The notes beneath the pieces were generated by a model. The model saw only the letters and a program-made list of their open reading frames with translations, searched no databases and was not told the origin of the DNA. The position numbers were made by a program, and so were the translations under genes. From Palaeococcus pacificus DY20341 (GTDB taxonomy: Archaea > Methanobacteriota_B > Thermococci > Thermococcales > Thermococcaceae), in the NCBI RefSeq assembly GCF_000725425.1, contig NZ_CP006019.1:62001-126000 (forward strand): a stretch of 64,000 nucleotides of DNA, written 5' to 3'. Shown in pieces: positions 2,826 through 7,295 of this stretch (positions within the stretch are counted from its first letter, which is position 1; the number at the start of each line of letters is the position of its first letter).

Positions 2826-2854
2826 TTTCCGGGCCTCTGCTCCCTTTTCGAAAA

Positions 2855-2864
2855 CTTTTTATAT
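2855..2864 (+). promoter_or_regulatory. TATA box of the peptidase-like pair
   Basis: CTTTTTATAT lies 33 bp before the lipoprotein ATG at 2897, with a G-rich Shine-Dalgarno-like run at 2887-2891. This supports a start at 2897 rather than the in-frame upstream ATG inside trpS. Confidence 0.5.
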
Positions 2865-2896
2865 TTGTGCACGTTTTATTCTTGCAGGGGGTAAAA

Positions 2897-4675
2897 ATGA
2901 AGAAAGCCCCAATTCTGGCTCTCATGCTGATCGCTGTGGTTCTTGTGAGTGCCTGTTTGGGTGAAGGCAATACGCCGGCAAGTTCAACGACTTCAGTGAC
3001 ATCAAGCTCTCCAACAGAAAGTAGTATCACGTCCGTTACTTCCTCTTACATGGAAGGACATGAAGGATCTGTGGAGTTTCTCTATCCTGAAAAACCGAGA
3101 GCCTTTGAGATAACCATCGAACAGCTCTACACCCTTATCACCCAGAAATATCGCCCGTCTTACAGCATTGACGGGAATCTTAGCGTGAGCTTTGATGGTG
3201 AGCACTACGTTACCGGAAACTTCTCTTTTGTTGTGCGCAACGTCTCCAGACAGAACCCCCTCTTTGTCTTTGTTGCCTACCCTAACAATCGTCGTGTCCT
3301 TTGGCTTAACCTCACGATTGAAGATGTTTTAGTTAATCTCAGTAGGGCTCACTACTACGTGAGAACCCTTTCCGGAACAGGTTGGGCCTACCGGGTTTAC
3401 TTCCTTAACTTCACGAGTTCTAAGGAGACTCTCCGCGGAAGGCTCGCTTATAAACTCGACTACGGTTACTTCGTCTCGAATGGAATAATCCAGTATATAA
3501 TGAGCCCGATTACTCAGTGGTTCATTTCCCCACTGGACGATGTTTTGAATGTCACTTTGTATGTCCCGAATGGAAGTATGGTCTTTGTCCCCTACGAAGG
3601 TGTCTTTAACTCTTCAGTTAGCCTTGAGAACGTCAACTTCTCCCGCTCTAACTATATTTTCTTCATCGGTGGTCTCTACGTGAGAAAAGATCTCACTGCA
3701 AGCAACATAAGCGTTCATGTTTTCATTCCCAAAGCCTGTTATCGCGACCTCTACTGGCCCACGGCAGAGATGTACATCACTGGCACGCTGACCTACTATT
3801 ACAAGTGGCTCAACGTGACGCTAGTGAATGATGTGTATATACTCCTTAGGCTTGGTTCGGTGGGGAGGGACTTCAAAGGGCTTACCTGGGGACGCTATGG
3901 CCTGATTGTTATCGACTGTGTTGGAGGAATGTCAAAGCTCGTCAATTCTGACATCAACATATTCTACCACGAACTCGCCCATCTCTGGTTCGGTGGTTAC
4001 GCAAACTTCGGCAGACTGAATGAGGGATTTGCGACTTACCTTGAGTGGAGAATGCTTGATGTATTTGGCCACAGAAAATACTTCTTTCAAAAGGTGGAAG
4101 AGGAGGTTATTAGATATCACTCCCGGATAAACATAGCTAGTGCCCTCGATTTGCGTTCGAGGGGTTACTCTGACCCGGCTGTTACTGCGATGATCTACAA
4201 CAAGGCGGCCTTCGCCTTTCGTTCGTTGGAACTGGTTATGGGCAGGGAAACCTTCGATCGTGCCCTTGAAGACCTGCTTAGAGATTGCCAAGGAACTTAC
4301 TGTGATCTCACGACTGTTCAGGTAGTCTTCGAGAACGTCAGCGGTCAAGATCTTGGCTGGTTCTTTGAGGAGTGGTTCAACTCCACAAAGTTGCCAGACT
4401 ACAAGATTGAAAACCTCACGCTGAGTAGCGAGAGCGGAAGCTACAGCCTCACGTTCACTATAACCGACACCAGCAACTTTATAATGCCTCTTGAGATAAG
4501 AACCGTCACAGAGGACGGCAGATTCATAGACAAAACTGTATGGGTTAACGGAAGCGCTGAAGTCAGCTTTAAGCTCGATGCCAAGCCTATGAGGATTATT
4601 CTCGACCCAAACGAATGGATGGTGAATGAGAACAAAGAATATGATGTGAATGGGATAAAGGTGATAGTTGAATGA
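2897..4675 (+). CDS. M1-like (gluzincin) metallopeptidase lipoprotein
   Basis: The 592-residue protein starts with a lipoprotein signal (LMLIAVVLVSAC, cysteine near residue 20) and a Ser/Thr-rich linker, so it is probably membrane-anchored outside the cell. HELAH at residues 358-362 is a zinc HExxH motif, and NEGFATYLEW gives the third ligand at E376. The two motifs are separated by 13 residues; canonical M1 aminopeptidases have 18. The following YNKAAFAFRSLELVMG and the C-terminal FFEEWFNSTKLPDY also resemble M1. A canonical GAMEN motif is not evident, so aminopeptidase activity is uncertain. The next gene overlaps its stop by ATGA, suggesting a joint function. Confidence 0.75.
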   Translation: MKKAPILALMLIAVVLVSACLGEGNTPASSTTSVTSSSPTESSITSVTSSYMEGHEGSVEFLYPEKPRAFEITIEQLYTLITQKYRPSYSIDGNLSVSFDGEHYVTGNFSFVVRNVSRQNPLFVFVAYPNNRRVLWLNLTIEDVLVNLSRAHYYVRTLSGTGWAYRVYFLNFTSSKETLRGRLAYKLDYGYFVSNGIIQYIMSPITQWFISPLDDVLNVTLYVPNGSMVFVPYEGVFNSSVSLENVNFSRSNYIFFIGGLYVRKDLTASNISVHVFIPKACYRDLYWPTAEMYITGTLTYYYKWLNVTLVNDVYILLRLGSVGRDFKGLTWGRYGLIVIDCVGGMSKLVNSDINIFYHELAHLWFGGYANFGRLNEGFATYLEWRMLDVFGHRKYFFQKVEEEVIRYHSRINIASALDLRSRGYSDPAVTAMIYNKAAFAFRSLELVMGRETFDRALEDLLRDCQGTYCDLTTVQVVFENVSGQDLGWFFEEWFNSTKLPDYKIENLTLSSESGSYSLTFTITDTSNFIMPLEIRTVTEDGRFIDKTVWVNGSAEVSFKLDAKPMRIILDPNEWMVNENKEYDVNGIKVIVE

Positions 4676-6057
4676 GGAGGGTTTTGGTTCTCTTAACTCT
4701 CCTTCTTCTCTCCCCTCTCACTTCAGCCGGCTACTATGTAATCTTGGACGAAGATTTGGCCACTTTAGAACCTTACGCTCAGAAAATTGCCGACTTTCAC
4801 AACGGCACTCTAATAGTCTCTGACTTCTCAAACCTGAGCTTTCTCCAAGACGGTGATTACGCTTTATTTGTAGTGGATTACTCAAAGTTCAGCGCTGATT
4901 TTGTCTATTCTCTTTATGACAGCCTCGATTTTGATGGAGATGGAATTTACAACCCTATCTTAGGTTTTTATCCCGTAAATAGTGAAGATGGATTCAAATC
5001 ATGGGTTAAGAGCTTAACCTCCCCCATGTCCGGTGCGGCGCTCTTTGTCAGGAGGGATGGAATGAGTTATGGAGAGTATCTAACACGCTCTCAAAATGCA
5101 TCTCTTATCTGGATATATGGGCACGGCGACCCTCTCGGTGTGGACTTAATCACATGGCGCTTTGATAGGGAGCACATGGGCAATCCAAAGGGAAAGGCAT
5201 TTATTTTTGAGTCGTGCAGTGTTGGAGAAGTTTGGAAAACAGGCAAACCCTTAGTTTTGGACTTACTCGCGGGCGGCTCTTTGGCGGTAGTTGCTTCAAC
5301 AGACATGGGTGGTGTATCATACCTACCACAAGAACTCTGGCTCTCAAATTACTCCCTCGGCAAGCTCGTCCAGATAAACAATGCCTACTTCATGAAGATT
5401 GGAGTTAGCCCAAAGGTGGTACTCTTTGGTGACCCCGCCCTAAAGTTTTCGAGTGAAAAGAGGTTTACAGAGGTTTCTATTTTAGAGGCAGGGATCTTTA
5501 AATATCTTTTTCCAGAAGTGAACGGTCATATTTATCTTCCTTCCGGTGAAAAGCCGGGCACTTTGGGAGGTATATTTCTGGCCGCAAAAATTTATTACGG
5601 TGTACTCAACCCTGTAAGCCTGTGGGACAGCATCGTGACCCAAGACGGGATATTTCCTCTCCTGCTCTTGGTTTACGCTCTAATACCTGCATTGAACTTC
5701 AAAAGGATAAGGCGTAGAGACGTAGCTTTGAGCCTAACAGCGTCTCTTGTTGTATTTATTCCTCTTGCTCTTATCTCTGAGGACGGGCCCTCTTCACTTC
5801 AAGTGTCTGCTAAGATAATTATTTTGTGGGCCCTTGCGCTTCTATCCTCTTTAACACTCCAAAAGATGCGCTATCTGTTCTTATTGCTCATGCTGCCATT
5901 TCTGATGGTGATATTTGCGGGCATTGCGGGGCTTGTGAGCCTGAGCTATGCCCTATTTGTCTCCCTAGTCTTTGTCATTGTGACGGTAATAGTTTCCGTG
6001 CTCCTCTATGTCCTAGTATTTGGGTTTGAAGCTGTGTCACGGGGTAAAAAAGCGTAG
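4672..6057 (+). CDS. gingipain-like (peptidase C25 / clan CD) membrane protein
   Basis: The 461-residue protein has a signal peptide (residues 1-19), an extracytoplasmic domain to about 310, and four or more membrane helices at the C-terminus. In the outer domain, YGHGDP (H151) and FESCSVGE (C182) match the His/Cys dyad of clan CD caspase-fold proteases, 31 residues apart. VVLFGDPALKF resembles the GDP element that closes the C25 fold. A fragment DFDGDGIYNP near residue 83 looks like a calcium loop. It is translationally coupled to the upstream M1-like lipoprotein. Protease activity is inferred, not shown. Confidence 0.6.
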   Translation: MRRVLVLLTLLLLSPLTSAGYYVILDEDLATLEPYAQKIADFHNGTLIVSDFSNLSFLQDGDYALFVVDYSKFSADFVYSLYDSLDFDGDGIYNPILGFYPVNSEDGFKSWVKSLTSPMSGAALFVRRDGMSYGEYLTRSQNASLIWIYGHGDPLGVDLITWRFDREHMGNPKGKAFIFESCSVGEVWKTGKPLVLDLLAGGSLAVVASTDMGGVSYLPQELWLSNYSLGKLVQINNAYFMKIGVSPKVVLFGDPALKFSSEKRFTEVSILEAGIFKYLFPEVNGHIYLPSGEKPGTLGGIFLAAKIYYGVLNPVSLWDSIVTQDGIFPLLLLVYALIPALNFKRIRRRDVALSLTASLVVFIPLALISEDGPSSLQVSAKIIILWALALLSSLTLQKMRYLFLLLMLPFLMVIFAGIAGLVSLSYALFVSLVFVIVTVIVSVLLYVLVFGFEAVSRGKKA

Positions 6058-6238: not shown

Positions 6239-7295
6239 ATGGCGTTGAGTAGGAACGAGGCACTTGCGTTAGCAATAGGAACTCAAATCGGGGCTGGTGT
6301 TTTAGGTTTGCCCTATGCGGCGAGAAAAATAGGTCTAATCCCAAGCATAGGTGTCATGTTCATTGTCGCTCTCGTCATGTACGTAACTGCTCTCTTTGTC
6401 CTTGAGCTTTCAGCAAAGAACGGCGGAAAGCAGATGTCCACGTTAGCTAAGGAAATACTTGGCAGGCCTGGAGGAGTAATAATGTTTGCAAGCGTTTCTC
6501 TAATGAGCTATGGTGCTCTATTAGCTTATATCTCTGGTGGAGGAGGTGTTTTCGCGAACCTCTTTGGCATAAACGAGGAGATAGGTGCATTAATCTTTTG
6601 GGCCTTTGCGAGCCTCATAATTTATAGAGGATTGGAGATGTCAGGAAGGAGCGAGCTAATTTTGAGCGGTGTTTTAATGATTCTCTTCATGATAGTTGCA
6701 GCAATGGCCATACCCCACGCAAAGGTGGAAAATGCATTCTATATGGGGAGCGAAGGGCTCGTAACGCTCTTTGGAGTTGCTATATTTGCATTCGGATGCC
6801 ACACAATAGTTCCAGACATCTACAAAGGGCTTGGGAACTATAGAGAGGCCAAAAAAGTGTTGCTCTTGGCTTTCTTAGTTCCCGCCATAATGTATTCACT
6901 CCTTAGTTCCCGCCATAATGTATTCACTCTTCGTGGCCTCATTCCTCTTAGTCTTTGGTGAGAATACTCCCCAAATAGCGACTCAAGCCCTCGAGCAGCT
7001 CTATGGAAGAACAGGAATGCTCATTGGAAGTTTAATCCCAATCTTTGCTATCCTAACGAGCTACATAGGCCTTGGCTTGGCTCAATTGGACAACATGGAA
7101 GAGTACTTAAAGATGAATAGAAAGCTCGCATGGGCCATAACAGTCCTTCCACCATTGGCACTCTACATGGGTGGAATTAGAGACTTCGTTGAGGTTTTAG
7201 GAGCTGCGGGAAGCACAGGCGATTTCATGGCCTTCATAATAATGCCTGTGGTACTTTACATAACTTATAAGCTTAGGCCTGCGTTCTTTAGGTAG
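6239..7295 (+). pseudogene. aromatic amino acid permease (AAAP/HAAAP-like), frameshifted
   Basis: The reading frame opens at 6239 after GGAGGTGG and runs as a polytopic amino acid permease. NEALALAIGTQIGAGVLGLP near residues 5-24 is the family's helix 1 signature. At about 6902 the frame is lost and continues in another frame to 7295. The cause is visible: a perfect 28-bp direct duplication at 6874-6929. Removing one copy restores one uninterrupted ORF of 342 residues with the normal helices downstream (VFGENTPQIATQAL). As written, translation stops at 6961 after about six helices. The duplication is exact and so recent; it could be a strain mutation, a reversible switch or an assembly error. 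Substrate specificity is inferred from family resemblance only. Confidence 0.8.
6874..6929 (+). repeat. 28-bp perfect tandem duplication inside the permease gene
   Basis: Positions 6874-6901 and 6902-6929 are identical, head to tail, with no mismatch. Twenty-eight is not a multiple of three, so the extra copy shifts the frame. There are no inverted ends or flanking target duplications, so this is replication slippage or an assembly artefact rather than an insertion element. Confidence 0.95.

Follow-up and report, generated by a model that had tools for sequence, protein, structure and literature searches.

A recurrent pair of M1-like and C25-like peptidase genes in Palaeococcus pacificus and its relation to RiPP clusters of the Thermococcaceae

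Introduction

Metallopeptidases of family M1 are canonically defined by 18 residues between the HExxH motif and the third zinc ligand, and by the exopeptidase motif GAMEN. A member of this family, AplP, removes the leaders of ribosomally synthesized and post-translationally modified peptides (RiPPs), serving bacterial class III/IV lanthipeptides, and similar genes are often found outside the clusters (PMC10885120). None of the terms "C25," "gingipain," "caspase" and "clan CD" appears in that paper (PMC10885120). Here we describe two overlapping genes from Palaeococcus pacificus DY20341 that encode an M1-like lipoprotein and a membrane protein resembling the C25 (gingipain) peptidases. They lie in a stretch of 64,000 nucleotides (contig NZ_CP006019.1, positions 62,001 to 126,000 of the forward strand), hereafter the window. 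In our best reading the two proteins are peptidases of the cell surface that serve RiPP peptides or derive from them, with maturation, resistance and nutrition as candidate roles. Genomes and loci compared with the window are denoted by our working numbers (G and L).

Results

A Divergent M1-Like Lipoprotein

The protein encoded by the first gene is matched by the M1 family model PF01433 at 44.9 bits (cut-off 27.7; E = 1.4e-11), and all 15 sequences of the M1-like alignment match the same model at E ≤ 1. When these 15 sequences were used as a profile against the PDB, M1 enzymes came up with E-values as low as 4e-21 (97 sequences at E ≤ 0.01), with a 5-residue gap in the zinc site and a tyrosine aligned with the M1 tyrosine. 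The features originally predicted for this protein are all present, namely a lipoprotein signal, with C20 as the lipobox cysteine, the HELAH motif (H358-H362) and a glutamate 13 residues further on (E376). The canonical 18-residue spacing is absent, and no GAMEN was found in the protein; the GAMEN stretch of an M1 structure aligns to a variable segment.

The same peculiarities recur among the relatives. HExxH occurs in 52 of the 53 M1-like sequences listed, the remaining one being a fragment, and the spacing to the glutamate is 13 or 14 wherever it could be read, with one value of 17; GAMEN occurs in none of the 53. Judging from these sequences, the 13-residue spacing and the missing GAMEN mark the whole thermococcal M1-like branch, which is not that of the classic M1 aminopeptidases. 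Because the exopeptidase motif is missing, the protein is more likely to be an endopeptidase than a classic aminopeptidase. Five further candidates (L101-L105, E = 2e-10 to 4e-7) were considered as canonical M1 enzymes and left unused, as their longest frame contains no HExxH.

A C25-Like Membrane Protein

For the second protein, a His151/Cys182 dyad, a GDPAL element and a multi-helix membrane anchor had been predicted. Both residues and the GDP of the element (G253-D254-P255) are present and invariant in the 12 aligned sequences (the window's included; mean column identity 58%), and several hydrophobic segments follow residue ~315. The dyad aligns with that of archaeal C25 proteins in the same HG and C context. 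A profile-profile comparison with 13 archaeal C25 domains (hhalign) gave a probability of 65% and an E-value of 6.3e-5, with the DGD, GxxPV, HG and C elements aligned. The C25 model PF01364 scores the window protein at 15.5 bits, below its cut-off of 23, and matches five of the 12 aligned members at E ≤ 1 (best 0.0016).

A trimmed structural model of low confidence (pLDDT 59.9) placed the gingipains RgpB, RgpB and Kgp at ranks 1-3 among 350,542 chains in Foldseek, at E-values of 0.006-0.009 and TM values of 0.26-0.30. In a VIA comparison of the weak model, Z stayed below 8 with many unrelated Rossmann folds among the rows, and a C25 entry was absent among the 50 matches listed. A PDB profile search with the C25-like alignment, up to E 10, returned no gingipain and two chance-looking matches. 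An AF2 model of the full protein with one relative (pLDDT 43) was dropped for fold claims. The gingipain-like reading of the original prediction is supported by the profile-profile comparison and the Foldseek ranking, but tempered by the missed Pfam cut-off and the weakness of the model, so that a caspase-type fold is at most suggested. Together, these comparisons suggest that the window protein is C25-like, short of a proven C25 member.

The short zinc-ligand loop, the missing GAMEN and the C25 score under the Pfam cut-off could also be expected of catalytically dead or decoy proteins, in which peptidase folds are used for binding. We consider this very improbable, as all 15 aligned M1-like sequences keep H358, E359, H362, E376 and Y434, and all 12 C25-like ones keep H151 and C182.

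Coupling and Distribution of the Two Genes

The two genes overlap by ATGA, as had been noted from the window. In all seven pairs examined, including that of the window, the M1-like gene lies directly upstream of the C25-like gene with a 4-base stop/start overlap, and a GGTG precedes this overlap in each of them. Upstream of the M1-like gene is an A/T-rich element, CGAAAACTTTTTATATTT, which we take, from knowledge of archaeal promoters, to be the likely promoter of the two-gene unit; similar elements were found 5' of M1-like genes in relatives. The two genes probably form a co-transcribed, translationally coupled module of extracytoplasmic peptidases.

C25-like matches were found in 14 of 94 Thermococcaceae genomes (13 genes, one of them frame-broken, and one remnant). 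Outside this family there were none in 115 genomes of the phylum or in 23 and 200 genomes of two other archaeal phyla, in searches run without a positive control, and viral contigs scanned with both alignments gave no match. M1-like matches are present in 58 of the 94 genomes, short N-terminal-only matches counted in. The two genes are adjacent in seven of the 13 genomes that keep the C25-like gene, so that the predicted neighborhood holds in six genomes besides that of P. pacificus. A locus between the TrpRS and FAH genes holds one or both genes in 30 genomes, with seven pairs, four C25-like genes without a full M1-like gene and 19 M1-like genes alone; among the fetched loci, L076, L198 and L200 were seen with the FAH flank only and L111 with TrpRS only. 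The pair is therefore real and recurrent, but not obligatory. Of the two-step surface system first suggested, the coupling of an M1-type metalloprotein to a clan CD/C25-type protein and the predicted position of both outside the membrane are supported. None of the outcomes named in advance as refuting it came up, as H151 and C182 do not vary, the genes adjoin in other genomes and the weak fold model points to gingipains. A two-step order of action and a mutual need of the two proteins are at most conceivable, with four C25-like genes lacking a full M1-like partner and 19 M1-like genes standing alone.

The distribution also bears on a role in which the pair sheds or matures surface proteins of the cell itself, and in which the C25-like protein would be the main protease and the M1-like protein its partner. 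Both proteins are predicted to be membrane-anchored outside the cell, and the gingipain relatives are known to process surface proteins; the patchy occurrence of the C25-like gene (14 of 94 genomes) nevertheless indicates that there is no core need, and no conserved gene for a surface-protein substrate was recognized at the locus, so that we regard such a role as quite unlikely.

Relatives of Both Genes in Radical-SAM RiPP Clusters

A Cys-rich precursor peptide of 53-77 residues with a shared leader was found in 6 of the 94 genomes (G015, G016, G018, G101, G102, and G116). Residues F6, I8, E10, G12, S13, E15, G19, and N20 of the leader are invariant (pattern E-x-G-S-x-E-x-x-x-G-N). In all six genomes the precursor gene is followed by a radical S-adenosylmethionine (SAM)/SPASM maturase gene, frame-broken in G101, and then by an M1-like gene. 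An ABC-2 permease was seen in five of the six, and a DUF4932 protein in several. The precursor and CefB-like maturase genes are located at L152:7702-9372, L116:9673-11378, L117:4030-5730, L119:5004-6690, L150:11078-12776, and L151:11372-13083.

The C25-like genes outside the TrpRS locus show a comparable association, as both follow a maturase or its remnant. In G019 the gene comes directly after a Clo7bot-like maturase (E = 1.3e-85); in G005 it directly follows a 41-residue maturase remnant, and close by are another radical-SAM gene, genes resembling PqqD and SagB, and an exporter of the type seen in the precursor clusters. In G026, the C25-like remnant is on a contig that also carries a fragment of this exporter. 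A hotspot that lies between a gene we label MESVE and one we label helicase-like contains precursor, maturase and M1-like genes in G116 and G018, maturase and C25-like genes in G019, and an M1-like gene in G011 and G115; the M1-like and C25-like genes therefore occupy the same slot in different species. Mutual exclusion of the RiPP-cluster and TrpRS-locus copies was rejected, as G102 carries both. At L122, L124 and L125, M1-like genes adjoin DUF4932 genes with no maturase nearby.

Phylogeny and Replacement of the M1 Body

In the M1 tree, 18 proteins of the TrpRS locus, including that of the window, form one clade (96/91). Its sister consists of RiPP-cluster rows (100/99), followed by a mostly RiPP clade (100/98). 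In the C25 tree, the window protein and two RiPP-cluster proteins are split from the other ten (99/99). The C25-like gene of G117, a genome that is 61% complete, is paired with an M1 of a different lineage from that of the other pairs.

Comparison of G103 with G086 (L070 and L068) revealed mostly 85-99% DNA identity upstream of the M1 body and again over the greater part of the C25-like gene. Within the M1 body the identity is 30-56% for the most part and increases near the end. At the protein level the C25-like sequences are 93% identical and the M1-like sequences 35%. The region downstream of the C25-like gene also appears exchanged between these loci. In G079, a draft that is 69% complete, the M1-like gene is reduced to its signal sequence and its last few residues, joined in frame, and an intact start of the C25-like gene comes right after them (L074:7120-7238); this near-complete, in-frame deletion of the M1 body has boundaries similar to those of the G103/G086 swap. 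An earlier interpretation of the upstream remnant of G079 as a C-terminal M1 stretch was rejected in favor of this junction. M1-like genes stand in tandem in G025 (two copies), and G081 carries an additional, broken one. The changes of the M1 body are compatible with exchange as well as with differential loss of tandem copies.

The body replacement between G103 and G086 and the in-frame deletion in G079 gave rise to a further proposal, in which the orphan pair would serve immunity on its own by destroying RiPP peptides made by neighboring Thermococcales. Such a module would combine a swappable surface protease, the M1-like body, with a constant membrane protease, the C25-like protein. Its source would be the protease arm of RiPP clusters, and it would have diversified as M1 bodies were exchanged while the signal sequence before them and the coupling site after them stayed fixed. 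We hold this proposal to be doubtful.

Layout of the Locus and Neighboring Genes

The features of the two-gene unit are listed in Table 1.

TABLE 1. Genes, motifs and expression signals of the M1-like/C25-like unit, in window coordinates.
Feature	Position	Strand	Basis
BRE/TATA-like element CGAAAACTTTTTATATTT, ~30 bases 5' of M1-like start	2849..2866	+	sequence
Shine-Dalgarno-like GGGGGT before M1-like gene	2887..2892	+	sequence
M1-like metallopeptidase lipoprotein gene, 592 aa	2897..4675	+	PF01433 above cut-off; profile match to PDB M1 enzymes
Lipoprotein signal sequence, lipobox Cys20	2897..2956	+	sequence; C20 nearly invariant in M1-like alignment
HELAH zinc motif (H358, E359, H362)	3968..3982	+	H358, E359, A361, H362 invariant in 15/15
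Third zinc ligand E376, 13 residues after H362	4022..4024	+	invariant in 15/15
Y434 at M1 catalytic-Tyr position (Y-x-K-x-A)	4196..4198	+	invariant in 15/15; aligned to Y-A-K-G-A of M1 structure
Internal ribosome-binding-like GGTGAT before C25-like gene	4660..4665	+	sequence
ATGA stop/start overlap, M1-like/C25-like	4672..4675	+	sequence; ATGA or TTGA in relatives
C25-like clan CD cysteine-peptidase-type membrane protein gene, 461 aa	4672..6057	+	hhalign, Foldseek; PF01364 below cut-off
Predicted signal peptide, residues 1-19	4672..4728	+	hydrophobic segment 6-24
LDFDGDGIYNPILGFYP stretch (L85-P101), counterpart of archaeal C25 D-x-DGD...GRxPV stretch	4924..4974	+	alignments
His151, putative catalytic, in GHG	5122..5124	+	invariant in 12/12
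Cys182, putative nucleophile, in ESC	5215..5217	+	invariant in 12/12
GDP element (G253-D254-P255)	5428..5436	+	invariant in 12/12; also ends archaeal C25 domains
Multi-helix C-terminal membrane anchor, roughly 4-5 helices	5629..6036	+	hydropathy; helices in low-confidence model

Just downstream of the pair is a permease-like gene (window positions 6240-7295), presumably of the APC kind, whose reading frame is interrupted by a frame shift near 6825-6961; the same gene is intact in G002 (346 aa). Two small membrane-protein genes, resembling a CidA/LrgB pair, are located upstream of TrpRS at 78-1090, in the same order as in G002 (L108:1116-2128).

A permease-type gene at this position would suit a nutritional role, in which external protein or peptides are broken down at the surface for uptake, as in other peptide-fermenting Thermococcales. 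This permease is frame-broken in the window, however, the lack of GAMEN makes a classic aminopeptidase unlikely, and the nearest relatives of both the M1-like and the C25-like proteins include members of RiPP clusters. On balance, we regard nutritional surface proteolysis as possible but somewhat unlikely.

Discussion

On the gene order, overlap, motifs, homology, conservation, neighborhoods and trees we build a model in which the position of the pair at the surface, its activity, the endopeptidase mode and the class of its substrates are inferred. The M1-like protein, with its HExxH-x13-E pattern, would represent a divergent M1 branch and act as a zinc peptidase anchored by lipid, and the C25-like protein would be a Cys/His peptidase attached to the membrane by its C-terminal helices. 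The families of both are used in thermococcal radical-SAM RiPP clusters. In these clusters, an ABC-2 exporter would release the modified Cys-rich peptide, and as neither its ATPase (349 aa, L152) nor its permease (271 aa) has room for a fused peptidase domain, a surface peptidase would then cut the peptide. The pair of the window, situated between the TrpRS and FAH genes, is an orphan copy, and would therefore act either on peptides of other origin or on some native peptide. That the two proteins are surface peptidases of RiPP-used families, present as an orphan copy and cutting RiPP-like or other short peptides outside the cell, has in our estimation an even chance of being correct.

Several observations weigh against this interpretation. 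Either gene is often present without the other, and 23 of the 51 M1-like tree rows are neither from the TrpRS locus nor labelled RiPP, so that the M1-like family is not RiPP-specific. The window M1-like protein sits on a long branch (1.01), in a tree that carries a long-branch warning, and the C25 tree is unrooted and contains long rows. No maturase was found at the TrpRS locus in any of the 30 genomes. In the genome of P. pacificus itself, searches found no matching precursor, no CefB-like maturase (E ≤ 1e-40) and no exporter (E ≤ 1e-30), which is the reason for describing the pair as an orphan module; two other SPASM-type matches are present there.

The analysis connects a GAMEN-less, short-loop M1 lipoprotein with a gingipain-like membrane peptidase of archaea, and both with a radical-SAM RiPP system of the Thermococcales. 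If this connection is right, it offers candidates, open to testing, for the way in which hyperthermophilic archaea complete modified peptides or protect themselves against them, and the second gene would be a candidate C25-type RiPP protease. In the titles and abstracts of the open-licence literature searched, no link of such a pair to RiPP systems is described.

Comparison With Known Systems

With the M1 family (PF01433; aminopeptidase N, tricorn factor F3) the window protein shares HExxH, a glutamate in a NEGFA-like context, a tyrosine in Y-x-K-x-A and homology over ~300 residues; it differs in having 13 rather than 18 residues between the zinc motifs, no GAMEN and a lipid-anchored form of 592 aa. 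The second protein has the DGD...GxxP, HG, C and GDP elements of the C25 family (gingipains, PF01364, clan CD) in the same order, and its weak model ranks gingipains first. Unlike these, it scores below the Pfam cut-off, has a short outer domain followed by membrane helices, and yielded no solved relative in sequence searches. The maturases of the neighboring clusters match the models of the CefB/Clo7bot radical-SAM RiPP systems (NF038107, TIGR04334) at E-values down to 3e-105; at 353 bits, however, the thermococcal maturases are under the 600-bit cut-off, and the L152 precursor matched no Pfam or NCBIfam family. AplP offers a parallel, in that an M1-type enzyme is tied to RiPP clusters but can also be encoded elsewhere (PMC10885120), whereas the clusters described here are archaeal and of the radical-SAM/SPASM kind, and their peptidases are putative.
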